Source: Candidatus Nanohalarchaeota archaeon (GTDB taxonomy: Archaea; EX4484-52; B79-G9). Taken from it: DNA of 40,662 nucleotides. The stretch covers positions 1 to 40,662 of the forward strand of contig DAOWAN010000008.1 of NCBI GenBank assembly GCA_030634545.1. Reading direction: 5' to 3'. The position numbers and the translations under genes were made by a program. Below, piece after piece: positions 1-35,275 of the stretch (its first letter is position 1; every line of letters starts with the position of its first letter). The notes beneath the pieces are model-generated. The model was not told the DNA's origin, ran no database searches, and saw nothing but the letters and a program-made list of their open reading frames with translations.

Positions 1-1817
1 CGGTCAATCATCTGCCTGAAAAAACGAATCATATCCCCCTCAAGAAAGCTCGTATTCTTCATGATCTCAAAAATGCTGGACCCGTAATAGCACGGATAGA
101 CAATCGCAGTAAGATCCCTCATACAAGCGAACTTCTTCACCCCGGCAAGATAAGGATCAGAATTGATCTTCCCCATAAGCGCCCTCGTAGCCCTGTGATT
201 ATACTTCTTGAAAAACTCATTCCTCGGCTTATGCTCATACGCAAGACACGCAATAACCAGAAGCATCTCATAATCACTCAATCGCTTATAGAACCGCGTG
301 CCGAAAATCTCACCAGTATCAATCTCATCAGAATATATCCTCGAAGAAAACTCACCCTTAGCCGTAAGATTATCTTTCTCTATATACCTAAGAGCCACAA
401 GCTTCTTGCGAATATTATTGAAATTACGATAGATGACAGCCTTCTTCTCCTTATCGAACCTTTTGCCGTACTTTTGGTATGTACTGAAATTCTTACATAA
501 TATATGCTCTATCTCCCCCTTATTATGCTGCTTGACAAGATTCAGCACAGTATTCACAGAAAGCCTGAACTGCGACGTGATAGGCTCCGTATCCTTGGTA
601 GTCATCTTCTTAAGCACACCATAATTGAAATCCCGCGCCTCAACAACAGCATACGCAAACCCCTCCTTATCAATACCCCGTCTTCCTGCGCGCCCCGCGA
701 TCTGGAAATACTCCTTGGAATTAAGATACCGAAAATTTATACCGTCAAACTTCATCATAGAATCAAAACACACGCTCTTCGCAGGCATATTGATACCCAC
801 AGCAAACGTCTCAGTAGTATAAAGCACATTGATAAGCCCCTCAGAAAAAAGCTCCTCAACAAGTTCTTTGATTATAGGCAAAAGCCCCGCATGATGAAAA
901 GCAATCCCGTAAGGCAGAACCTGTCGCAGATCCCGCGTAGACTTCAGGTCATTGATCTCAGGCACAGCATCACTCAGCTTCTTACGCACCCGGGCAGAAA
1001 TCTCAGAATTAGTATCAAACATACCCGACCGTGCAAGCTCAAGCGCATTCTCCTGGCACTTGCGCCTTGAGAAAGTGAAAAAAAAGCAGGGCAGCTTATC
1101 CCTGATAAGCGACACAAGCTCCACATGCGCCTTAACCTCATCCCTTTTATTCGACTTACTTTTACGCAATCCCCGGTACCATACATTCTTAGCCTCATGC
1201 TTCTTCTTTATCTCATCAAGCGTAGTGACCCCAAGCTCAGAATCAAAGAACGTCCGGTGAAGCGGCACCGGCCTCTTATCATTCATGATCGTATCAACAT
1301 CATGTCCCTTGATTGCCTTGATCCAGTCCGCAAACTCGCGCGCATTAGGGATGGTAGCAGAAAGGCAAAGCATTCGCACACGTTCATGCGAAAACATGAT
1401 CGACTCTTCCCACACATAACCCCTCTGCACATCATTGATGAAATGTATCTCATCAAATATCACATAAGCCACCCGCTCAAGCGCAGGATCCCTGGTAATC
1501 GCCATATTGCGGTATATCTCAGTCGTCATGATAATCACAGGCGCCCCGGGATTGATAGTGACATCACCGGTAATCAGCCCGACACGATCGCGGCCATAAT
1601 CCTTCGAGAACTCCTTATACTTCTGGTTAGACAGCGCCTTGATAGGCGCAGTATATATCACAGTTATGCCTTTGTCTATATACTTATTGATAATATAATC
1701 AGCGATAAGCGTCTTGCCTGACCCCGTCGGCGCAGAAACGACAACAGAATGATTATTCTCAATAGAAGAGATGGCATCGACCTGAAACTTATCCAACACA
1801 AGCCCTTTATACTCCAT
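1..1817 (-). CDS. Ski2-like DEAD/DEAH-box helicase, C-terminus cut off by window edge
   Basis: Reverse complement from ATG at 1817 reads MEYKGLVLDKFQVDAISSIENNHSVVVSAPTGSGKTLIADYIINKYIDKGITVIYTAPIKAL (Walker A APTGSGKT; motif Ia TAPIKAL). Plus-strand ORFs here are antisense shadows. Confidence 0.88.
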   Translation of the reverse strand, partial: MEYKGLVLDKFQVDAISSIENNHSVVVSAPTGSGKTLIADYIINKYIDKGITVIYTAPIKALSNQKYKEFSKDYGRDRVGLITGDVTINPGAPVIIMTTEIYRNMAITRDPALERVAYVIFDEIHFINDVQRGYVWEESIMFSHERVRMLCLSATIPNAREFADWIKAIKGHDVDTIMNDKRPVPLHRTFFDSELGVTTLDEIKKKHEAKNVWYRGLRKSKSNKRDEVKAHVELVSLIRDKLPCFFFTFSRRKCQENALELARSGMFDTNSEISARVRKKLSDAVPEINDLKSTRDLRQVLPYGIAFHHAGLLPIIKELVEELFSEGLINVLYTTETFAVGINMPAKSVCFDSMMKFDGINFRYLNSKEYFQIAGRAGRRGIDKEGFAYAVVEARDFNYGVLKKMTTKDTEPITSQFRLSVNTVLNLVKQHNKGEIEHILCKNFSTYQKYGKRFDKEKKAVIYRNFNNIRKKLVALRYIEKDNLTAKGEFSSRIYSDEIDTGEIFGTRFYKRLSDYEMLLVIACLAYEHKPRNEFFKKYNHRATRALMGKINSDPYLAGVKKFACMRDLTAIVYPCYYGSSIFEIMKNTSFLEGDMIRFFRQMID

Positions 1818-1939
1818 GACAACTATCTGGACTGCACACATATAAATACATAGCCAAAACTATCAACTCAACAACACAAATCAATATATACCCGACAAAC
1901 CTAATATCACTGATAAAAATATTCAGATAGGTGAAAAAC

Positions 1940-2152
1940 ATGACAAAAATAAAAACAGAAAAACTATTCGGCACAAACGCAGGAAAAATCTGGAAAGCAC
2001 TAAACAAAAAAGGCGAAAAAACCGCAGCAGCACTTGAAAAAGAAACAAAACTAAAGATAACCGAAGTCCACTCAAGCTTAGGCTGGCTCGCCCGTGAAGG
2101 AAAAATAAGTGCCGACAAGACAAAAACAGGAACAATCTTCAGTCTTTTATAA
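1940..2152 (+). CDS. Small winged-helix protein (DUF2582-like)
   Basis: MTKIKTEKLFGTNAGKIWKALNKKGEKTAAALEKETKLKITEVHSSLGWLAREGKI; matches the family pattern of small archaeal/bacterial wHTH proteins. Confidence 0.75.
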   Translation: MTKIKTEKLFGTNAGKIWKALNKKGEKTAAALEKETKLKITEVHSSLGWLAREGKISADKTKTGTIFSLL

Positions 2153-8348: not shown

Positions 8349-8453
8349 TTATAGTTGACGTCGTTACTAGATGGACAAACACTGCCAAAAACAAATAGAC
8401 TTCAATCTATATGGAAAAGACATTTGTCCAAAAAGTTATATCTTTTACTATAA
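8349..8453 (+). ncRNA. Kissing-hairpin element E1 (novel structured family candidate)
   Basis: TATAG-TTGACGTC(8350-8362)/GACTTCAA-T-CTATA(8398-8411); AAAAGACAT(8415-8423)/ATATCTTTT(8438-8446, 1 mismatch); loop complement TGGACAAA(8372-8379)/TTTGTCCA(8423-8430); ACTATAA end. Confidence 0.7.
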
Positions 8454-22509: not shown

Positions 22510-22752
22510 ATGGGTGAAGAACAACTTTTCAATATGTTGAAAGAGAGACCCATGTCTGTTTCTGAACTTGCAAGGCGCTTAAGCGTCAGACGTGAGTACC
22601 TTGGCGGATATCTTGAAGCACTGCGCGATAGCGGCAGGCTTGAAAGGATTATGGTCGGCAGATCTTATGTATATAGACCAATCTATAGTACTGCTAGTGA
22701 CCCTACTGGTAATAGACGCCAGATGACCGTGGTTGCAGAAGAGGAAGAGTGA
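22510..22752 (+). CDS. Small winged-helix transcription factor
   Basis: MGEEQLFNMLKERPMSVSELARRLSVRREYLGGYLEALRDSGRLERIMVGRSYVYRPIY; stop abuts the giant gene start. Confidence 0.75.
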   Translation: MGEEQLFNMLKERPMSVSELARRLSVRREYLGGYLEALRDSGRLERIMVGRSYVYRPIYSTASDPTGNRRQMTVVAEEEE

Positions 22753-22754
22753 TC

Positions 22755-25700
22755 ATGGGTTCAAAAACAGATTGTCGGATAACTGGAATGGTTTTTATAA
22801 TTATAATTATGTCCTTGATTGTACTGGTTAATGCTGCTCCTCCAAGTTTATCTGGTGTAGTCGCGCGATTTAATGGTACGCCTATTGAAGGAGTGAATGT
22901 CAGCCTTTATAATAGCAGTGACGGGTCGTTTGTTTCTTCTAACCTGACAGATTCAGATGGCACATATTTTGTAGACCTCTCAGATGGCGACACATATCAT
23001 GTTATCTTCAATAAGACAGGGTTCATTTTTAGAAATGATACATACAGGAATATGACTATCACTATTGGCGGGGCAGAGGATATGACGCTTAATACAAGTT
23101 TGTATCCAGACAATCACGGAAGCTACAATTTCACAGTCTATAATCTGGCAACAGGTCTTGGAATTGAAGGTGTTAATATCACAATTACTGCATCTACAGG
23201 CGAGATTGAAAATGGAACAACCAACACAGACGGAATAGCTCTTATCCAGATCATTGCAAATAATTCAGATTTCAATGTAAGCCATAACATTACTATCAGC
23301 AAGTCCGGGCATAAATCACAGACACTGACAGATTATATTATGAATGAGGGATTTAATGAGAACCATGCAGTGTATCTTGACAATTACCGTAATATATCCG
23401 GGAAAGTTACAAGATTCAACAATAATAACATTTCCAGTATAAATGTTAGTGTTTATAACTTATCTACAGGTAATTTTCTTGCTTCAGGCATAACTGATTC
23501 TTTTGGGAACTATTTTATTAATCTTCCAGTTTGGGGTGACTGTTTTGTAATATTTAACGGATCCATCAGTGGCTTAGATGCATATATCTACGGGACAGAT
23601 AATTACAGGAATTATACTATTACAATTGGTCCTAATGATGCCTCGATTTTGAATGCAAGTTTATATTTTAAGAGTTATGGGAGTTATAATCTGACCGTAA
23701 GAGACACATGGAATGGAAGACTACTTCAAGGTGCAAATGTCACGATTTATCCTTCAGGTAATCCATCGGTATCAGGGATTACAGATGAAAATGGCAATAT
23801 CTTGCTTGAGGTAATTGCGAATTCTACAGAAAACGCCGGCGTGTTGCACAACATAAGCATTGTTTTAGCAGGTTACAAATCAGACATGATTTATTCCCAT
23901 TCTATTATAGAGGGAACTAATGAGGACATTTCTATTAACCTTACGGGTGCCTGTGAGATACATGGCGAGATTTCAGATTCAGAAAATAATCTCTTAGCAC
24001 CCATGATTGAAGATGCATATCTTGAACTATGGGACAACCTGAATACATACAGAGTTGGCTTTGGAGGAGATCATTATTACAGTACATATTCCAGTGCTTC
24101 AGGTCAATATTTACTTAATTATCCAAGCACTCTTCCAGGGACATTGAATTGCAGTGCATATCTGCATGTAAATGCTTCAGGATATGTATCCAGAAATAAT
24201 ATTTTGATAGAATCAAGTATCATAAAAGACATCAATCTTACCGGATCTGCTTATGTTTCCGGAAACATTGTTGATGCCAGCAATGTAAGTCATCTGATTC
24301 AGGGAGCGCTTATCAGAATCATCAACAACGGCTCGACCATGCATCAATTATATAGCGACTCATCAGGCATGTTCAATATTTCTGTAAGAGACAGTGTCAA
24401 TCACACAATCGAAATATCTATCCCAGATTATGCAATTTATACAAATTCAACAATTTACAATACATCTATAGATTATGGCACAATTTCACTTTACGGACTC
24501 GGTATCCTGAATGGCACATTGATGGATGAGACAAATAACTCAATATTGCTTGATGGAGTTGATGTCAAAATAGCAAGTACAAGTAATATATACAGTACAA
24601 CAACAGATTCATCAGGACAGTTCGGGATTATTGTAAAGGACAATACCCAATATGATATCTCTTTTGAATTAAATGGTTATTTTGACAATTCCACAGTACA
24701 ACAGGTATTGAATGAGACAGATATCGGAACAGTAACACTTAGGGGAAAGAACCAGGTACATGGTATTGTAACAGATTCAGATAATCTACAGAACATCCAT
24801 GTAAACGGCACGAAAGTGGAATTGATAAGTCAGATAGATACAAAGAGATATACCACATATACTGACGGAAATGGTGCATACTCCTTCTATGTATCATCTA
24901 TGATCAACGATTATCTGATGAGATTTGATAAAGCAGGATACAATGTGTCACTCACGAATTACTCAATGATCAATAATGCTTTGATTAATGCGAATCTTAT
25001 TGGTGCAACCCATATTGAGGGCACTGTAGAAGATGTTTATTCTCCTGTTGCAGCAGAGATTTCTTCTGTTCTCATAGAGGTTATCGATGAAAACGATACA
25101 GTTCATTACAACACATTATCAGACATTGGTGGACACTATTCATTTGATATTGGCATTGATTTCAATTATACTCTGAAAGCAACAAAGGACGGGTATCAGG
25201 AAGAGAGAATTACAAATTTACCGTGGGATCATGACCGGAGTGGCACAGGCGGCGCTGACAGGATACAGGACATTTTTATGAATGGTACAATTAGTGTTTA
25301 TGTAAGGACCATTGATGGTTTTGACAATATGGACATTGATAACTCACTGGTATGTGTCCTGTACGGACCATCCTATTCTGATTGTTTCTATGTCAAGACC
25401 ACAGGAGATGAAGGAGATGTCAGATTTAATATCCACAGCAATGACTATCGCCTGAAAATTACAAGAGATGGCTATCCACAGGCATTTAGACCGTCTGAAA
25501 GCGGGTCATTGAATGGCGATTTTTCAGGCAATGTTACACTTGAGGCTTATGCAGAGATTTATGTTTATGATAATTATGCTTTGAATAATGAAGACATATA
25601 TCTTGCGACAATCGAGCTTTATACATACAATAACCAGACAGATTTTGCTTATAACCTGAATGAGACGCTTGTAAACATTACTGCCGCATGCAATGGTGTA

Positions 25701-28700
25701 CAGAGGGACAATATGAACGTAACACTCGTAGGCATCACACATCCATACTATAGCTCACAAAACACAGTAGGCGGTAGTCCTCTCGTATCTTTCAGGACAG
25801 TACCTACCGGATATCACAATCTGATAATTGACGGAACTGCATTTGGGTGTGGACATTATGAAGAGACCATAAATGTCATTTCAGGCGGCGTTACTTATAC
25901 GCAGGATTATGACACAGACACCGTACCACCTTCATTTCTTAGTCTTACTGAAAGCGCTGATCCACTTGAATTTGGCAGTTCTGTAACAGTATCGATTGAT
26001 GCTATTGACTCACAGAATCCCATAGATACAGTTCTTATTGAAGTATATGGAACTAATCGAACTATGACTGCAGTCTCTGGTGATACATACCAATACGCAT
26101 GGTCACCAACAGCAGTAGGCGTTGTAGCATATACAATTTATGCTAATGACACATGGAACAACATAAATCAGACAAGCGGAAGTATTACAGTCCAGGACAC
26201 GACTGCGCCAGTAGTGACACTGGTTTCACCAGATGACCAACTGTTCTATACAGACAGCGTTACTTTCACATATAATGTCAACGATCTTTCAGCAATCCAA
26301 AACTGTGAATTATGGACAAATACCACAGGTACATGGACATTAAATATGGGCAATACAAGCACAATCACTGTTCCCGGACCGAACACATTTAATATGAGCA
26401 GCATAGGTGACGGCAATTATATCTGGAATGTAAATTGTACAGACACAAGCAGCAATGATGATTTTTCATCTGCGAATTATGTATTTACAGTAGACGAAAG
26501 TACACCGATTTTGACCATCGCGTCACCGGAAAATAAGAGTTATAGTTCCGGAGATGTGATGTTCTTCAATATTTCGAGCAACAAGGCGCTTGTCAGTGCA
26601 GATTATTCAATAAATGGAGGCGCCAACATCACCATGTATAGTACTTCAATTACGCAGTTTTATGGGCTGCAGTTTCTGATGAGCGATGGCACATATAATG
26701 TGATGTTTTATGGATTGGGATATAACGGAAAAATAGGAGCCACAGGCTCAAGAACCTTTAGCGTAGATAGTGTCAATCCAAATGTAACCAGTGTCGACCC
26801 GGCAAATGAGTCAATCTTTGTCGAAATTGCGACAGTAGGTTTTACTATCGATGCTGATGAGTCAGTTAATCTTACAATAGTTTACTGGAATGATTCTGGT
26901 TTATGGACTGCGACAAATGCAAGTTATGTACCCAATCCATGGGCAGCATCAGCAGGACTTGCAAATGACACATACCTTTGGAATTACACTGTATGCGACC
27001 CTGCCGGCAACTGTGTATCCAGCGGTAATTTTACATTTGATGTTTTACCAGCTCCAGCAAGCATCACAGTATATGTAAATGACACAACAGCAAATAATCC
27101 AGTTGGTGCCAATAGCAATGGAGATGGTGTGAATGTCAGGATTTCTAATGCAACATATTCTGAGACAAAAAATACAACAGATGTAGGTTATGTCATATTT
27201 ACAGGTCTTTGTGATGACGAATACGACATAAGTGTAAACGGCACAATGCAGGGTTACGGGATGAACAGTATTGTGGATTACGCTCTTACAGGCGACATTA
27301 AGACTACAATACTATTGAATATCACGAGACTGACTGTGAATGTCACCGATGCCCTGTTCGCCCCAGTTGCCGATGCAAATATCACTGTGTATGAATCAGA
27401 TGACACCACAATTGCAAAAGATGCAGCAGGCAACAATCTTGTGGCACAGTCTGGTGCAAGCGGTATCATTGTCTTTAATAGGGCACTTCCATGCAATAAC
27501 TGCAATGTAAGTGTGAGGAAGAATACCAGCGGCATGACTTATGAGAACTCGACACCAGTAAATATTATTGCCGGGAATCTAAGCAATTACGCATGGGTTG
27601 ACCCGCCGCAGTCCATATCACACACATTTGACTTGAATTTTACACTGAACAGCGACATTGTTCCCGTGGGTGTAACTGTAAGTATAAGAGATTATAATTC
27701 AAGTGTTATCCGCTGGTCAAATACCACAGATGCCAATGGCAACACCATCATATACAACATACCGTCCGGAGTATATGATTTTATTATAGATGGCGAAGCT
27801 GTAGGTTATTCCAAAGATATTCACTACGCAAACTCTGTCGGCGTGATTATACAGAATACAGATGCAACTAACATTAACGGACGAGTGAAGATAAATATCA
27901 ATGGCTTATTTACATATTATGTAGCTGTCAGTGCAAACGGATATAATCAACATGATGATCTACTCGTCAATTCTCCAAGAGTAGGCACCTATGATGATTC
28001 CATTAATACAACAGGCATAAGTCCAATGATACAACTGGGACTTGACGGCAATACAACGCTTTCAGGTTATGTGTATGATACTAATTTCAAGACACCTATG
28101 AATCTATCTTATGAGCCAATATCCAATGTTACATTAAGTGTTTATACAACGACATCATGCGAAGTTATTCCTTCGCCTGCACTTCTTAGATACAGAGCAG
28201 TAAGTGCAGAAAATGGCATCTATTCTATGATCGTGTCACCAGTACAGCAAAGTGACCCATCAGCAACTCAGGATTATTGCGCAAATGTAACTGCCTCTGG
28301 CTTTATCAGTGATAATGCGAATGACATCAATGTCTACAATAATCTCAATGTAGGACTTACAGGAGATGGAATAGTTAGCGGATACATTCGATCGCAGGAC
28401 AACAATACATTTTTAGGTGAAGCTACAATTCTTTTGAGATCCAGCCAGTGTTACGGGGGTCTCAGCGGACCCGTTGCGCAGTGCTCTGCCTATGAGAAAA
28501 TTAGTGATGCCACAGGATATTTTTCGTTTAATGTCAATTCAAGAAGTAGCAATCCAAGTTATGTACCATATTCAGTAAGAATTACTAAAAACGGGTACAC
28601 TATTTTTAACGACGGCGTAATATCTGCTTTGCCGAGTATTGGCAATTACTTTTACCTTGCACCCGCTACTATGTCTACTATTAATGTGACTGTAACCTCT

Positions 28701-31073
28701 GAGTTTAGTGAATATATTTCAGATAACGTAACATTGAAATTTGAGAATAATGATATTACTGTAACTGAATCTGATTGCATACTTCTAGGTAATGTATTTG
28801 TGTGTAACATCAATAATGGGGTTTATGATTTGACGGTTAATGGTACTTTTATAGGATATGATTATTATTACGAAAGTGGTGTAATTTTGATTGGACAGAC
28901 TATTGAGAAAAACATAGTACTCAATATCACAAAGGCAAATATTACTCTTTTTGATGATAATGGTCAGCCCGTTTCAGGTGTCAATATCACTATAAATTCA
29001 GTACCGACAATCACTAACACTACAGTTGATGGCTCTGCTTTGTTTTACAAAGTCCTGCCCGGGACACATACACTGAGCTTTACAGGACTTGCAGATTACC
29101 TGGGTGTCTCTAACAGTACCATTGACATTGTGAATATTGGTAGTACAAACACCAAGACACTGTATGCAAATGAGACGCAGTTTTATGTCAATATTAGTAA
29201 TGGCACTGCAGGTATAGAAAATATCAGTATGACCATAGGCGGACTTTTTAATATCACTAATTCAACAGGTGAGATTTTGTTTGACAAGGTGAACAATTCT
29301 CTCTCAGGAACGTACTTTGTAGAATTTAACCGGACAGATATTTATTTAAGAGGTTATATTGCACCCTATCCAAATATTTCTGTCAATGTTTCAGCAGGAC
29401 TTGACCGTATGAGCGGAAACAATCTTACTGTGATACTCAACAGGACAAACGGATATGGAATCCTGAGAGTAAATACCAACCTCAATGGTGTAAACGTCAG
29501 TTTGTGGCATAATAACACAGATTACATAGATCAACAGATCTGCGGTAGTGACGGATTTGCATTTCTTCATACAAATATAAGTTCGTATAATTCATCCTTA
29601 TACATAAGAGCTGAGATGGAAGGCTATAATAATGAGACCATTGGTCCATATAATGCAACAGATGGAAATATTACTTACATTGATGTGACTATGACTTCCA
29701 CATATAGCAATTGTGCTCATGGTGCGATTACAACGACATGCCTGTGCAGCGGTGCGCCTTACAGCTTTGGATATTGCTGCAGCGGCTCTTACCAGACAAC
29801 GACATGCGATGTCGGATACAACCCCGGCGGCGGTTCATCGTCTACAAGTAGTGGGAGCAGTCCTGGAGGAGTTACAATTATTGATGATCCCATAGAGACT
29901 ACAGAAGAGGTTTATAATTTTTCAATTCATGCTGGAGACTACTATATTTTCAATATTGCGAAAGATGGAAGTGGTTGCGTCAATATACCTGTAAGGATTT
30001 CAAATACAGGAAATACGATACTTAATAATATAGACATGAAGATTTCCAATCTTTCTTCTGTGTTTAGCGCAGATTTTGACCCTTTCACCATTGTACTTTA
30101 TCCACATGACGAAACATTCTTAGTTGTCCGGATATGTTCTTCAGACAGTGTTATCAGGAAAGCAGACTATGAATTTAAATTATCTGTTTCCAGTGGCAAT
30201 GTAAGTAGAAGTGCTTCTATAACATTGAGAGCAATTCCGAAAAGTGATGACACTCTTTCACGCCTGAAAGAAAGACATGAAAAACAGGGTTCAATCCTAT
30301 TTGATATTAATGTCTCTTCCCTGACCCCAGAGTTAAAAGAGTATTATGATACTGCGATGAGAAATCTGAAAGATGCAGAAGATTACATGGAAAGCGGGAA
30401 TTATGAACAGGCAGGTCATTCACTTGATGAAGCTGAGAGGAATATACAGTTGCTGCTTGATGGTATTGATGATGTACCTCCTGTTATTGAGGATTCCATC
30501 AACTGGTATATTCTTGGCGCAGTTGCTTTTACACTTGCCATTCTTTCCGGATTGTTATATTGGTTCTTTTTGCGCAAGAGGAACATATTTTCAAAAGAAC
30601 CGATTTTACCATGGGATTTATCAGCAAAGACACCCGTACTAAAACTGCCGAAGATTGATTTCTCTTCAATCAAGGTTCCTACAGCTCTTTTAAAGGTAAT
30701 GGGTAAGCATGATGTATATTACACCCATTCAATGAAAAAGAAGAGGTATCTTACAGATATTATTGAAAAGGTACTTGAACTTAAGTGCCCGAAGTGCGGC
30801 GGCAAGATATACCAGAACAGATGCGTATGGTGTGGATATAAGATTAATGCTTCCTTGAGGATGGACAATGCTAAAGCGACTCCAAAAAAGGATGATGATG
30901 ATAAATCTTTCAGGCAAGTTACCAAGAGCAATGTATATTACACTCACAGGTCGCAGAAAAGCAATGGAGTAAGTGACAGGTTTGTGACAGATGATATTGA
31001 GCAGGTTATCGAAAAAAAGTGTTCTAAATGCGGCGGCAAAATATATGCTGGCAAATGCATCTGGTGCAAATAG
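22755..31073 (+). CDS. Giant surface protein: signal peptide, many carboxypeptidase-regulatory/Ig-like repeats, TM helix, zinc-ribbon tail
   Basis: N-terminal hydrophobic segment; repeats of I(S/H)GxVxxxxx..I.gvnVsvyn; dense N-x-S/T; Cys-rich TTTCLCSGAPYSFGYCCSGSYQTTTC; TM WYILGAVAFTLAILSGLLYWFFLRKRN; two CPKCGGKIYxxxCxWC motifs. ORF track starts at GTG 22749. Confidence 0.9.
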   Translation: MGSKTDCRITGMVFIIIIMSLIVLVNAAPPSLSGVVARFNGTPIEGVNVSLYNSSDGSFVSSNLTDSDGTYFVDLSDGDTYHVIFNKTGFIFRNDTYRNMTITIGGAEDMTLNTSLYPDNHGSYNFTVYNLATGLGIEGVNITITASTGEIENGTTNTDGIALIQIIANNSDFNVSHNITISKSGHKSQTLTDYIMNEGFNENHAVYLDNYRNISGKVTRFNNNNISSINVSVYNLSTGNFLASGITDSFGNYFINLPVWGDCFVIFNGSISGLDAYIYGTDNYRNYTITIGPNDASILNASLYFKSYGSYNLTVRDTWNGRLLQGANVTIYPSGNPSVSGITDENGNILLEVIANSTENAGVLHNISIVLAGYKSDMIYSHSIIEGTNEDISINLTGACEIHGEISDSENNLLAPMIEDAYLELWDNLNTYRVGFGGDHYYSTYSSASGQYLLNYPSTLPGTLNCSAYLHVNASGYVSRNNILIESSIIKDINLTGSAYVSGNIVDASNVSHLIQGALIRIINNGSTMHQLYSDSSGMFNISVRDSVNHTIEISIPDYAIYTNSTIYNTSIDYGTISLYGLGILNGTLMDETNNSILLDGVDVKIASTSNIYSTTTDSSGQFGIIVKDNTQYDISFELNGYFDNSTVQQVLNETDIGTVTLRGKNQVHGIVTDSDNLQNIHVNGTKVELISQIDTKRYTTYTDGNGAYSFYVSSMINDYLMRFDKAGYNVSLTNYSMINNALINANLIGATHIEGTVEDVYSPVAAEISSVLIEVIDENDTVHYNTLSDIGGHYSFDIGIDFNYTLKATKDGYQEERITNLPWDHDRSGTGGADRIQDIFMNGTISVYVRTIDGFDNMDIDNSLVCVLYGPSYSDCFYVKTTGDEGDVRFNIHSNDYRLKITRDGYPQAFRPSESGSLNGDFSGNVTLEAYAEIYVYDNYALNNEDIYLATIELYTYNNQTDFAYNLNETLVNITAACNGVQRDNMNVTLVGITHPYYSSQNTVGGSPLVSFRTVPTGYHNLIIDGTAFGCGHYEETINVISGGVTYTQDYDTDTVPPSFLSLTESADPLEFGSSVTVSIDAIDSQNPIDTVLIEVYGTNRTMTAVSGDTYQYAWSPTAVGVVAYTIYANDTWNNINQTSGSITVQDTTAPVVTLVSPDDQLFYTDSVTFTYNVNDLSAIQNCELWTNTTGTWTLNMGNTSTITVPGPNTFNMSSIGDGNYIWNVNCTDTSSNDDFSSANYVFTVDESTPILTIASPENKSYSSGDVMFFNISSNKALVSADYSINGGANITMYSTSITQFYGLQFLMSDGTYNVMFYGLGYNGKIGATGSRTFSVDSVNPNVTSVDPANESIFVEIATVGFTIDADESVNLTIVYWNDSGLWTATNASYVPNPWAASAGLANDTYLWNYTVCDPAGNCVSSGNFTFDVLPAPASITVYVNDTTANNPVGANSNGDGVNVRISNATYSETKNTTDVGYVIFTGLCDDEYDISVNGTMQGYGMNSIVDYALTGDIKTTILLNITRLTVNVTDALFAPVADANITVYESDDTTIAKDAAGNNLVAQSGASGIIVFNRALPCNNCNVSVRKNTSGMTYENSTPVNIIAGNLSNYAWVDPPQSISHTFDLNFTLNSDIVPVGVTVSIRDYNSSVIRWSNTTDANGNTIIYNIPSGVYDFIIDGEAVGYSKDIHYANSVGVIIQNTDATNINGRVKININGLFTYYVAVSANGYNQHDDLLVNSPRVGTYDDSINTTGISPMIQLGLDGNTTLSGYVYDTNFKTPMNLSYEPISNVTLSVYTTTSCEVIPSPALLRYRAVSAENGIYSMIVSPVQQSDPSATQDYCANVTASGFISDNANDINVYNNLNVGLTGDGIVSGYIRSQDNNTFLGEATILLRSSQCYGGLSGPVAQCSAYEKISDATGYFSFNVNSRSSNPSYVPYSVRITKNGYTIFNDGVISALPSIGNYFYLAPATMSTINVTVTSEFSEYISDNVTLKFENNDITVTESDCILLGNVFVCNINNGVYDLTVNGTFIGYDYYYESGVILIGQTIEKNIVLNITKANITLFDDNGQPVSGVNITINSVPTITNTTVDGSALFYKVLPGTHTLSFTGLADYLGVSNSTIDIVNIGSTNTKTLYANETQFYVNISNGTAGIENISMTIGGLFNITNSTGEILFDKVNNSLSGTYFVEFNRTDIYLRGYIAPYPNISVNVSAGLDRMSGNNLTVILNRTNGYGILRVNTNLNGVNVSLWHNNTDYIDQQICGSDGFAFLHTNISSYNSSLYIRAEMEGYNNETIGPYNATDGNITYIDVTMTSTYSNCAHGAITTTCLCSGAPYSFGYCCSGSYQTTTCDVGYNPGGGSSSTSSGSSPGGVTIIDDPIETTEEVYNFSIHAGDYYIFNIAKDGSGCVNIPVRISNTGNTILNNIDMKISNLSSVFSADFDPFTIVLYPHDETFLVVRICSSDSVIRKADYEFKLSVSSGNVSRSASITLRAIPKSDDTLSRLKERHEKQGSILFDINVSSLTPELKEYYDTAMRNLKDAEDYMESGNYEQAGHSLDEAERNIQLLLDGIDDVPPVIEDSINWYILGAVAFTLAILSGLLYWFFLRKRNIFSKEPILPWDLSAKTPVLKLPKIDFSSIKVPTALLKVMGKHDVYYTHSMKKKRYLTDIIEKVLELKCPKCGGKIYQNRCVWCGYKINASLRMDNAKATPKKDDDDKSFRQVTKSNVYYTHRSQKSNGVSDRFVTDDIEQVIEKKCSKCGGKIYAGKCIWCK

Positions 31074-31186: not shown

Positions 31187-31876
31187 TTATATTTCGTCTC
31201 TTAATATTTTTATTCCTTTATCAGTAATCTCAAATGGAAATGTCCCGTGCTTATAGTTTGTGAGACGCAACTTTCGAATAGCAATATTTCTACATACTGC
31301 ATTTTCCATACCTGTATAGTAAAGAATTATTACACCATCAACCACATATTCTTCAACACCATATCGTGACAGTTTATCGCTATTTTCCGGTATCTCTGAA
31401 GACAACAGAGCAGTACAATTGGCAGCTTTTAGAGCCTGGACAAGTTTGTAAAGCTTTTTTCTGACTTTATATGGATCATTTATATACATTCCAAAAAGCG
31501 ATGTTGAATCTATGACAACTCTTTTATAGTCATTTACAATAATAAGATCTTTCAGACGACTTGATATATCACCTAATTCAAACGGATCAAAAAATTCAAT
31601 ACTGCATTCTCCTGCTTTTTCGAATTTCTCGAAATTCCATCCATATTGCAATGCATCTTTTCTTATCTCATCTGGTGTCTCTTCAAGAGTTATAAAGAGA
31701 CCATTTTCTTTTTTCTGAAGTCCCTCCCAGATGAACTGAAGTAGAAATGTTGTTTTAGCTGTTCCAGCAGATCCTGAAACCAAAGTGACTGATGGCTTTG
31801 GTAGACCTCCACGGGTGAGCTTATCTAGTTCATCACAACCTGTTGTTGTTCTCTCAATTTCTACTTCTGAACCCAT
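31187..31876 (-). CDS. KaiC/RadA-like RecA-superfamily ATPase
   Basis: TGCDELDKLTRGGLPKPSVTLVSGSAGTAKTTFLLQFIWEGL (Walker A). Confidence 0.88.
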   Translation of the reverse strand: MGSEVEIERTTTGCDELDKLTRGGLPKPSVTLVSGSAGTAKTTFLLQFIWEGLQKKENGLFITLEETPDEIRKDALQYGWNFEKFEKAGECSIEFFDPFELGDISSRLKDLIIVNDYKRVVIDSTSLFGMYINDPYKVRKKLYKLVQALKAANCTALLSSEIPENSDKLSRYGVEEYVVDGVIILYYTGMENAVCRNIAIRKLRLTNYKHGTFPFEITDKGIKILRDEI

Positions 31877-32061: not shown

Positions 32062-33129
32062 TCATATATCCCGTTCAATCAAATAAGTAGCAAATTCTGA
32101 TAACATATGTTTTGATTCAGACTCCGGTAAAATTGTATCAACTTCAGACCATGCGTCTTCTATAATCCTTTTTGCAGTGTTTTTCGCGAATTCGATTGAA
32201 TCATATTTCGTTAGTATCGCTAATGCTTCGTTTATTTCGCTTTTGTCTCTAGTATGTTTATTCAGGATTGCAATCAGCCTTTTTTTATCCGTTTCACAAG
32301 CGTTGTTGACAGCATGGATCACCATAAGAGTTCTTTTTCCTTCATGAATATCATTTCCAAATGATTTACCGAATTTGTCGCGCTGACTTGTTGTGACATC
32401 CAATATATCATCCTGTATCTGAAAGCCTATACCCACTGATTCTGCGAATTTACTTATCTTTTGTTCCTGTTCTTTTGTACCATGTGAAAGAATTACTGCC
32501 AGCTTGGCTGTGAGTCTTGCAAGCGTCCCTGTTTTGTACGCGCACATTTGCAGGTATTGTTCAATTGTTACGTTTTCGTTCTTCCCCTTATGCCACCAGA
32601 TATCCATAGCCTGACCAAGTGATAGGTTTGCCATTTCCTGAACATATGCTTCGTACGCACATGACATCATATTAGAATCTGCAACATCCTTTTTTTCGCA
32701 CATTATTTTCATGGGAATATAGTAAAGTGCATTGCCCACGTTTATTGCAACATCAGTCCCGTATATTTGATGGATTGTAGGTTTGTTTCTTCTTTTATCT
32801 GAGTCATCTTCCACATCGTCGATTATAAGTGTTCCATTGTGAATCAACTCTGGTATGATTGCAAAGTCAATAAGGTCATCTGCCTTTTTGCCTAATGATT
32901 CAGTGATTAGAATGAAGAAACTGGGACGCCACCTTTTGCCTCCGCGATCAAGTAGGTTCCAGATAGGATCAATGATACATTTCTGGATTGAATCTATTTC
33001 ATACTTATATCCTGTGGGTCCTGCAAGCCATTCAAGATAGGCTTCATCTATCTTTCTTGGAGTGTACTTTTCAATTGTTTTGTCAATAAGTTCTTTGTTC
33101 TTTTCGAGAAAGGATATGAGTTCTGTCAT
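32062..33129 (-). CDS. Polyprenyl (geranylgeranyl-type) diphosphate synthase
   Basis: LIIDDVEDDSDKRRNKPTIHQIYG (first Asp-rich motif), GIGFQIQDDILDVT (second Asp-rich motif). Confidence 0.93.
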   Translation of the reverse strand: MTELISFLEKNKELIDKTIEKYTPRKIDEAYLEWLAGPTGYKYEIDSIQKCIIDPIWNLLDRGGKRWRPSFFILITESLGKKADDLIDFAIIPELIHNGTLIIDDVEDDSDKRRNKPTIHQIYGTDVAINVGNALYYIPMKIMCEKKDVADSNMMSCAYEAYVQEMANLSLGQAMDIWWHKGKNENVTIEQYLQMCAYKTGTLARLTAKLAVILSHGTKEQEQKISKFAESVGIGFQIQDDILDVTTSQRDKFGKSFGNDIHEGKRTLMVIHAVNNACETDKKRLIAILNKHTRDKSEINEALAILTKYDSIEFAKNTAKRIIEDAWSEVDTILPESESKHMLSEFATYLIERDI

Positions 33130-33190: not shown

Positions 33191-33295
33191 CTATAGTCAA
33201 GGCATGAAATAAATGAGCAAACATCACAAAAAACCAATGTGCCTTGATCTATATGAGAAGGCACTCTACTCAATTTATTAGTGCCTTCACTATAG
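33191..33295 (+). ncRNA. Kissing-hairpin element E4 (most diverged copy)
   Basis: CTATAG-TCAAGGCA(33197-33204)/TGCCTTGA(33240-33247)-T-CTATA; GAAGGCACT(33257-33265)/AGTGCCTTC(33280-33288); loop complement AATAAATGAG(33208-33217)/CTCAATTTATT(33269-33279, one bulge); ACTATAG end. TATA-like tttatatat centred near 33166. Confidence 0.78.
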
Positions 33296-33467: not shown

Positions 33468-34277
33468 ATGGTCTTTGAATTATTGATGAATGCGAAAGAG
33501 GCAGAGTCTAAGCCAATCGAGATGTTTTTTTATGGACTTTTAATCACAACTGTATCTTTATTTGCTGCTTACTATATTTTCCCATCTTCATCTTCTGTGA
33601 TTTTTCTTTTCCTGATTACTATTGCTGCATTTCCAACAATTTCTGCAATCCTAAGAGATGATGAAGCCATTGATGAAGAGACAGAGAATATTGATTTGAG
33701 TTTTTTTGCTCATCATGAGAAGACAATCATGGTTTATGCGTACCTTTTCATGGGTGTCTTGATTGGTGTTTCTTTCTGGTATACTATTTTACCTGAGAGT
33801 TATACATCTTCACTTTTTTCACAGCAGATGAATACTATTGCAAGCATAAGACTTAGTGGCTCAGCAACTGCATCAACCATGACTTTCTGGACAATACTTT
33901 CAAATAATCTAAAAGTTACCACAATTGCTTTCTTGATGTCTTTTTTCTTTGGAACAGGAGCAATATTTATCCTGTCATGGAACGCATCCGTCATTGGTGT
34001 TTTCGTAAGCGATCTTGCAGGTAAATTTTCACAGCAGCATTCATATTCGCTTTTGCAGGGACACTTGGATGCGCTTCTGTCAATAGCGATTCACGGGGTA
34101 CCGGAAATTGCTGCATATTTTATTGCAGGCATTGCAGGAGGTATCCTTTCTATCGGTATGATTCGCGGTGAAAAGGATTTAAGAATTGCAAAGGACGCAG
34201 GCGCGCTTTATCTGGTATCTTCACTGATTCTGATAGCTGCTGCTGTAATAGAAGTATGGATAACTCCAAATCTTTAA
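33468..34277 (+). CDS. SpoIIM-like membrane protein (stage II sporulation protein M family)
   Basis: Multi-TM with NASVIGVFVSDLAGKF...AIHGVPEIAAYFIAGIAGGILS (HGxxEI motif). Confidence 0.85.
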   Translation: MVFELLMNAKEAESKPIEMFFYGLLITTVSLFAAYYIFPSSSSVIFLFLITIAAFPTISAILRDDEAIDEETENIDLSFFAHHEKTIMVYAYLFMGVLIGVSFWYTILPESYTSSLFSQQMNTIASIRLSGSATASTMTFWTILSNNLKVTTIAFLMSFFFGTGAIFILSWNASVIGVFVSDLAGKFSQQHSYSLLQGHLDALLSIAIHGVPEIAAYFIAGIAGGILSIGMIRGEKDLRIAKDAGALYLVSSLILIAAAVIEVWITPNL

Positions 34278-34292
34278 CTTTATGGATTTTAC

Positions 34293-34453
34293 TATAGTTC
34301 ACGCCGTTACTAAATGGACAAATATGACCCAAAACCGAGAGGCGTTAACTATCCGGGCGAATCTCAAAGATTCGCTGGATCATAAAAATCACACGGTGAT
34401 TTTTAATGATATGGAAAAGTCATATCGTCCAAAAAATTATGACTTTTACTATA
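34293..34453 (+). ncRNA. Kissing-hairpin element E3 (expanded junction arm)
   Basis: TATAG-TTCACGCC(34298-34305)/GGCGTTAA(34341-34348)-CTAT; AAAAGTCAT(34415-34423)/ATGACTTTT(34439-34447); loop complement TGGAC(34315-34319)/GTCCA(34427-34431); ACTATA end; extra hairpins GCGAATCT/AGATTCGC and AAAAATCAC/GTGATTTTT. Confidence 0.75.
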
Positions 34454-34558: not shown

Positions 34559-35275
34559 TCATAGTTTTATGAGTTTCAGACCATCAGGTGTTATATCAAA
34601 TGGATGTATTAATGTCGAATGGTCAGTACGCCTCATTTTTCTGATTGTCATTGTTCTTTTGAATTCCTCTGATACAGGTACGAAATCAAGTTTGATTACT
34701 GTATCAACAAGATATTCTATTATACCACTGCCAGTAAGCCCCTGGCTGGTTTCCGGGATTTCACCGCTGATTACTACTGTCACCTGCATGGCTTTGAAAT
34801 ATTCCACCAGCCCGAATAGCATCACTCTTGCCATATATTTGTCCTGCATGAACATCTCAAGCACAGAAACAGAGTCAAGAACGACTCTTTGCGCATTTAC
34901 ACATTTTATAGCCTCTGCTATCTGGCTTCGTATACTGATGAGATATGACTTTGTTATTCTTTGCAGCTCGTCACCGAGTGGCTTTTCAGGAAAGATTGCT
35001 TTGATTGACAGAAATTTTAGCAGTCCTTTTTGTTCTAATTCTGTGAAGTTCCAGTTGAACATGGACCGTATATCTTCTTTTATGTCTTCACTTCTTTCTT
35101 CTGTGGTTATGTAAAGCCCTGGCTCACCACCCAAAGCCCCTGCGTATATAAATGATGAACAGAATTGTGTTTTTCCAGTACCAGTTTTTCCGACAGCGAG
35201 AATGATTGAACCTTTTACAAAGCCGCCTTCAGTTTTTTCATCCAGCCCCACAATCCCCGTTTTTAAACGTTCCAT
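34559..35275 (-). CDS. KaiC/RadA-like RecA-superfamily ATPase (paralogue of 31187-31876)
   Basis: MERLKTGIVGLDEKTEGGFVKGSIILAVGKTGTGKTQFCSSFIYAGAL. Confidence 0.88.
   Translation of the reverse strand: MERLKTGIVGLDEKTEGGFVKGSIILAVGKTGTGKTQFCSSFIYAGALGGEPGLYITTEERSEDIKEDIRSMFNWNFTELEQKGLLKFLSIKAIFPEKPLGDELQRITKSYLISIRSQIAEAIKCVNAQRVVLDSVSVLEMFMQDKYMARVMLFGLVEYFKAMQVTVVISGEIPETSQGLTGSGIIEYLVDTVIKLDFVPVSEEFKRTMTIRKMRRTDHSTLIHPFDITPDGLKLIKL

Follow-up and report, generated by a model that had tools for sequence, protein, structure and literature searches.

A probable MITE-like, TA-inserting element of high copy number in Nanohalarchaeota, with compensatory changes in its two hairpins

The analyzed stretch of DNA (the window, 40,662 nt) is contig C10 of G000, a 2.18 Mb archaeal bin of Candidatus Nanohalarchaeota. 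The sequence studied here, E4, is located between two divergently oriented genes, one encoding a polyprenyl synthase (ORF 33129..32062, minus strand, PF00348) and the other a SpoIIM-family protein (33468..34277, plus strand, PF01944). The region is flanked by two genes for KaiC-family ATPases (PF06745), both on the minus strand (window 31187-31876 and 34559-35275), and an open reading frame of 2774 aa is present at window positions 22749-31073 on the plus strand. Three related copies, E1, E2 and E3, are found in the same window. The features are as follows:

8350-8452, plus strand: E1-type compact copy, 103.9 bits
17362-17509, plus strand: E2-type copy whose loop B contains a double-hairpin module, 98.5 bits
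33162-33179, minus strand: stretch of about 17 nt, TTATATATTTGTTGGAT, conserved in three congeners lacking E4
33192-33294, plus strand: E4, very probably a compact two-hairpin mobile element with a 103-nt core (cmsearch 115 bits; dispersed copies; ends set by empty sites elsewhere)
33192-33197, plus strand: left end of E4, TATAGT, the first TA being the presumed target duplication; near-invariant and non-compensatory in 41 cores
33198-33204, plus strand: 5' strand of helix A, CAAGGCA, partner 33240-33246
33208-33217, plus strand: loop A segment AATAAATGAG, complement of the loop B segment
33240-33246, plus strand: 3' strand of helix A, TGCCTTG, partner 33198-33204
33247-33256, plus strand: linker ATCTATATGA, in other copies the insertion site of hairpin modules (CTAT^ATGG)
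33257-33265, plus strand: 5' strand of helix B, GAAGGCACT, partner 33280-33288
33269-33279, plus strand: loop B segment CTCAATTTATT with one bulged A, complement of the loop A segment
33280-33288, plus strand: 3' strand of helix B, AGTGCCTTC, partner 33257-33265
33289-33294, plus strand: right end of E4, ACTATA, the last TA being the presumed target duplication
34293-34453, plus strand: E3-type copy whose linker contains a double-hairpin module, 63.3 bits; fold z = -6.9

The original prediction assigned positions 33191-33295 to E4. The pairing segments are present there, and the element proper extends from 33192 to 33294 with a TA at each end. The predicted 8-bp helix A was confirmed, consisting of seven Watson-Crick pairs and a T.G pair at 33205 x 33239, as were the perfect 9-bp helix B and the match of 10 pairs with one bulged A between the two loops. 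Considered as RNA, E4 folded better than 200 of 200 shuffled sequences (z = -4.5). Its minimum-energy fold was a long stem between both ends and not two hairpins, because AAGGCA is present in both stems. This end-to-end stem lay about 9-10 kcal/mol below the two-hairpin fold, for which neither the loop-loop contact nor any other pairs were included in the energy. Energy alone therefore cannot select the predicted fold and it is the comparison of copies that does so.

Blast searches of the own genome revealed 43 places for the E4 type (201-bp query), its complete copies stopping at CTATAG ends, and 54 places for the E1-3 type. A pattern made of the common ends and the linker gave 15 matches in comparison with 0 in the reversed control. 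A covariance model built from 41 copies identified at least 65 copies in the own bin, 50, 41, 55 and 34 copies in four congeners, 9 and 3 copies in members of a different genus of this family, and a few in 9 further genomes; overall, 16 of 61 genomes were positive. Relatives found by the pattern scan belonged mostly to Candidatus Nanohalarchaeota, many of them from the Guaymas Basin. Pattern matches in Bacilli, Clostridium, Mycoplasma and Cloacimonetes were considered as chance, since the covariance model gave no match there, and viral contigs were rejected as hosts, as none of four pattern matches was matched by the model. Some of the most distant model matches were 91-96 nt long and had other stems and loops, with similar ends and two hairpins. 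Four of these, in distant archaeal genomes (L191, L202, L203 and L193), combine ends resembling TATAG/CTATA with two hairpins unrelated in sequence and possibly represent a wider class. At one locus (L008, either side of 333-435, minus strand), an E4-type copy was apparently inserted at a TA in the TATAGTT end of an E1-type copy, yielding a head-to-tail pair of the two types.

The claim that E4 has little primary sequence in common with E1-E3 proved too strong. The 41 compact copies, encompassing both types, aligned column by column without gaps over 103 nt, with the TATAGT/ACTATA ends, TAAATGnnCAAA, CAAAAACCAA and ATCTATATGG in common, and this alignment indicates that E4 is homologous to E1-E3. 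The related claim, that the stems were rewritten with the fold kept, was borne out as real compensatory change between homologous elements. Among the 41 cores, 99.3% of the helix A cells were paired and 7 of 7 pairs showed double changes; for helix B the values were 99.4% and 6 of 8 pairs (99% of cells and 13 of 15 pairs for both stems together). The covariation score was reached by none of 500 shuffles, and sliding the partner by one column reduced the pairing from 94.8% to 30-34%. Because of the relatedness of the copies, these counts do not represent independent events, and the stronger point is the variety of stem types, with 37 distinct helix A strings and 17 distinct helix B strings. The TATAGT/ACTATA columns varied solely by unmatched changes, and the ends are thus kept as sequence. 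At the feet of helices A and B in E4-type copies (columns 7/55 and 66/97), the orientation of the C/G pair usually switched in both helices at once (C:G in combination with G:C, or the reverse), due to which the two ends mismatch there in about 91% of these copies.

In the loop-loop match, 81.7% pairing was detected for columns 23-28 x 76-81. Columns 25-79 and 26-78 changed jointly between the E1-3 and E4 types, and columns 27-77 and 28-76 were often unpaired, chiefly in E4-type copies, in which the match extends the other way. In the minimum-energy fold, about 24 positions of one end of E4 are paired with the other end, mismatches and a bulge included, and the loop segments constitute the inner part of this long terminal inverted repeat. 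As the complementarity of the loops follows from the inverted repeat, it alone cannot prove a kissing contact and was rejected as independent proof of tertiary structure. A kissing contact between loops A and B is plausible, the best argument from the sequences being that the match is retained in E1-E3 though the stem parts of the ends have diverged. The position of the loop segments within the end-to-end stem, as well as the minimum-energy fold of E4, would also agree with an element in which this long terminal stem is the maintained structure, similarly to a Correia-like MITE, and not the two hairpins. We regard this as very unlikely, because the end-to-end pairs of columns 7-13 held in 75.3% of cells, in comparison with 99.3% for helix A, and both hairpins were present in the minimum-energy fold of 45 of 58 cores.

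The compensatory changes could be explained without selection of a folded strand if each hairpin were corrected by palindrome repair at the DNA level (template switching or conversion), the element still being mobile. Stems that stay near-perfect despite sequence change are in accordance with such repair, which is nevertheless an unlikely source of the pattern: TAAATGnnCAAA, CAAAAACCAA and ATCTATATGG, all unpaired, were better conserved than the stems, and the joint changes of columns 25-79 and 26-78 link two different hairpins. Mismatches gave a further indication. Among distinct helices, G.T exceeded A.C in helix A (17 vs. 6, two-sided p = 0.035), as expected if one given strand folds, and 19 G.T versus 8 A.C mismatches were counted for both helices together (p = 0.052), whereas helix B alone had no G.T excess (2 vs. 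2), which speaks for palindrome repair. The excess in helix A leans towards folding of this one strand, as modest evidence.

Additional hairpins were detected in many loci. Among the 66 complete copies first extracted, 20 carried extra sequence of 52-289 nt between ATCTAT and ATGG. These linker inserts consist of hairpin pairs separated by AT, with further pairs nested inside. Modules were also located in loop A (L030, L035, L206 and L209) and in loop B (E2, L079, L080, L083 and L093), and a copy of 392 nt (L024) had a fold z of -10.6. The added modules occupy unpaired sites and the core stems stay intact. Free-standing hairpin modules were rejected, as every module match among the loci read was situated inside an element.

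The insertion site was established from four independent occupied/empty pairs (L148 vs. L132 and L127; L028 vs. L176; L132 vs. L127; L105 vs. L163). The comparison of flanks revealed flank-TA-flank at the empty and flank-TA[TAGT...ACTA]TA-flank at the occupied sites, and no target duplications of 4-12 bp were found outside the element ends. Three congeners lack E4 itself between the same two genes, and the divergence of these gaps prevented an alignment of its own empty site to the base. The L163 contig (QNCM01000052), binned as Omnitrophota, carries a copy of the archaeal element as well as a region with 81-84% identity to L105, and was probably mis-binned. With a 103-nt core and 65 or more copies in the own genome, the element has the size and abundance of a MITE (<500 bp, AT-rich, many dispersed copies). 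The terminal inverted repeats TATAGT...ACTATA were present in all copies, the repeat extending to about 13 bp with one mismatch in the E4 type and being degenerate beyond 7 bp in the E1-3 type. The TA target was duplicated at the four pairs, as in the IS630/Tc1-mariner group, and no ORF-bearing (autonomous) copy was found within 5 kb, in agreement with the absence of coding capacity in MITEs.

These data bear on the proposal that E4 forms a self-contained non-coding RNA gene, having a kissing-hairpin fold and being transcribed independently from 33190 by its own archaeal promoter. The strong covariation of the stems is in line with it, and the TATA-like tttatatat about 25 nt upstream of E4, also cited in its favor, does exist. 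Its role as the E4 promoter was not upheld. The TTATATATTTGTTGGAT stretch is conserved where E4 is absent and, read on the minus strand, lies about 30-50 nt before the start codon of the synthase gene, the distance at which an archaeal promoter is expected. It is likely, from this position and conservation, the TATA/promoter of the minus-strand prenyl synthase gene (start 33129) and not of E4. A TATA-like hexamer 18-38 nt upstream was identified in 5 of 66 complete copies (61 lacking it); the opposite side gave 5 of 66 and control stretches 3 of 66. An E4 promoter at about 33161 was rejected, as no promoter linked to the element could be recognized. If E4 arrived by transposition, the sequence upstream of it is simply the one that was already present at the insertion site. 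A search of Rfam families at gathering and permissive thresholds gave nothing credible. Together with the dispersed copies and their TA duplications, which mark E4 as a transposable sequence rather than a solitary RNA gene under a promoter of its own, these results make the RNA-gene proposal scarcely tenable.

A mobile element without a gene has to be moved in trans. IS630-family transposases insert at TA and duplicate it (ISY100: PMC2170065), and the TA duplication points to the IS630/Tc1-mariner group. A single IS630-family transposase gene was found in the own bin (L177, G000:C139, ORF ~961-2013, plus strand). The terminal repeats of this IS630-family element, TA-TAGCAAwCCAAkGAAGT, have only TA-TAG in common with the element studied. 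Since the inner ends differ, L177 is not established as the mover, and it may belong to another organism because the own bin is 7% contaminated. No resident IS630-family element with terminal repeats in common was found in the own bin and four congeners, which are incomplete bins, and DDE_3 had no match in the four congeners (bins 68-81% complete).

Beyond TATAGTT, the arms of the E1-3 type match at alternate positions only, which is odd for a transposase reading a long terminal repeat. The mobile form might instead be a single strand (ssDNA or RNA) recognized by its shape, as in IS200/IS605, REP/RAYT and attC sites. The free stem sequences with a fixed fold, as well as the ends of the E1-3 type, in which only about 7 nt are fully common to left and right, would fit such recognition. 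It seems quite improbable, because a TA duplication is unexpected for IS200/IS605-type insertion and Y1 transposase domains are few: the own bin had two Y1_Tnp domains and a single one was detected among the four congeners (2 of 6 genomes). A Y1 transposase was rejected as the mover due to this sparsity, and the element does not group with REP/RAYT or IS200/IS605 derivatives, considering the duplicated TA and Y1_Tnp in only 2 of 6 genomes. It is likewise doubtful that the copies represent a class of transposable elements that still duplicates TA and is recognized by the shape of the folded strand (two hairpins and loop-loop contact) and not by terminal sequence. If this were true, the stems would be freely rewritable and hairpin modules could be added.

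Taken together, E4 very probably represents one copy of a non-autonomous, MITE-like transposable element that occurs in high copy number in Nanohalarchaeota (DPANN), inserts at TA, is mobilized in trans and has a fold under selection. The element corresponds to TA[TAGT...ACTA]TA, 103 nt including both TA copies, and at other loci it was seen to insert at a TA that becomes duplicated; its mover would most likely be a transposase of the IS630/Tc1-mariner type. The fixed ends enclose two hairpins joined by ATCTATATGG, the stems of which drift in sequence and stay paired, suggesting selection on the folded single strand. Likely reasons for such a fold would be that the folded strand is recognized or protected, or that read-through transcripts stay compact and harmless; folded-strand recognition, read-through tolerance and palindrome repair are the candidates to account for it. 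Subfamilies gain self-folding hairpin modules in the linker and loops with the core stems undisturbed.

Small mobile sequences made of two hairpins are known from fungal mitochondrial DNA as double-hairpin elements; the likeness concerns the two hairpins in outline only, organelle and sequences being different. RUP of Streptococcus pneumoniae (107 bp, 108 copies, inserted at TA) is similar in size, copy number and target (PMC2229807), but its terminal repeats are common with IS630-Spn1, whereas the only IS630-family gene found here has TA-TAG in common but differs in the inner part. Correia elements (CREE) of Neisseria belong to a 104-108 bp class with long inverted repeats, often a TA target and folded transcripts (PMC2649163). 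They resemble this element in size class, long inverted repeats, TA target and folded form, but their stem-loop is formed from the inverted repeats, whereas two separate hairpins are kept here, and host and sequence differ. CIR of Caulobacter, about 110 bp with two arms joined by a linker, a GANTC motif and unproven mobility, is comparable in size and in the arms with linker (PMC2229807); matched stem replacement of this extent is absent from the available part of its description. BOX of S. pneumoniae is a high-copy intergenic repeat with fixed end modules and variable inner self-folding modules (PMC3049150). The likeness lies in modular growth in which inner modules hardly disturb the end fold, and is one of organization: BOX has a tandem boxB array between boxA and boxC, whereas diverse hairpin pairs occur here in the linker and loops.

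The accessible portion of a 2024 review of prokaryotic MITEs (PMC10969869) contains no DPANN example and no mention of compensatory change, and no earlier description of the element was found in the open-licence literature. Judged from that literature, the DPANN archaea seem to harbor here an abundant mobile element not described before. For a miniature transposon, its compensatory change from stem to stem is exceptionally clear. Should mobility or tolerance depend on the fold, the element would provide a natural test of the selection of small transposons as folded RNA or DNA, and its added hairpin modules would record the growth of a structured nucleic acid without loss of the core.
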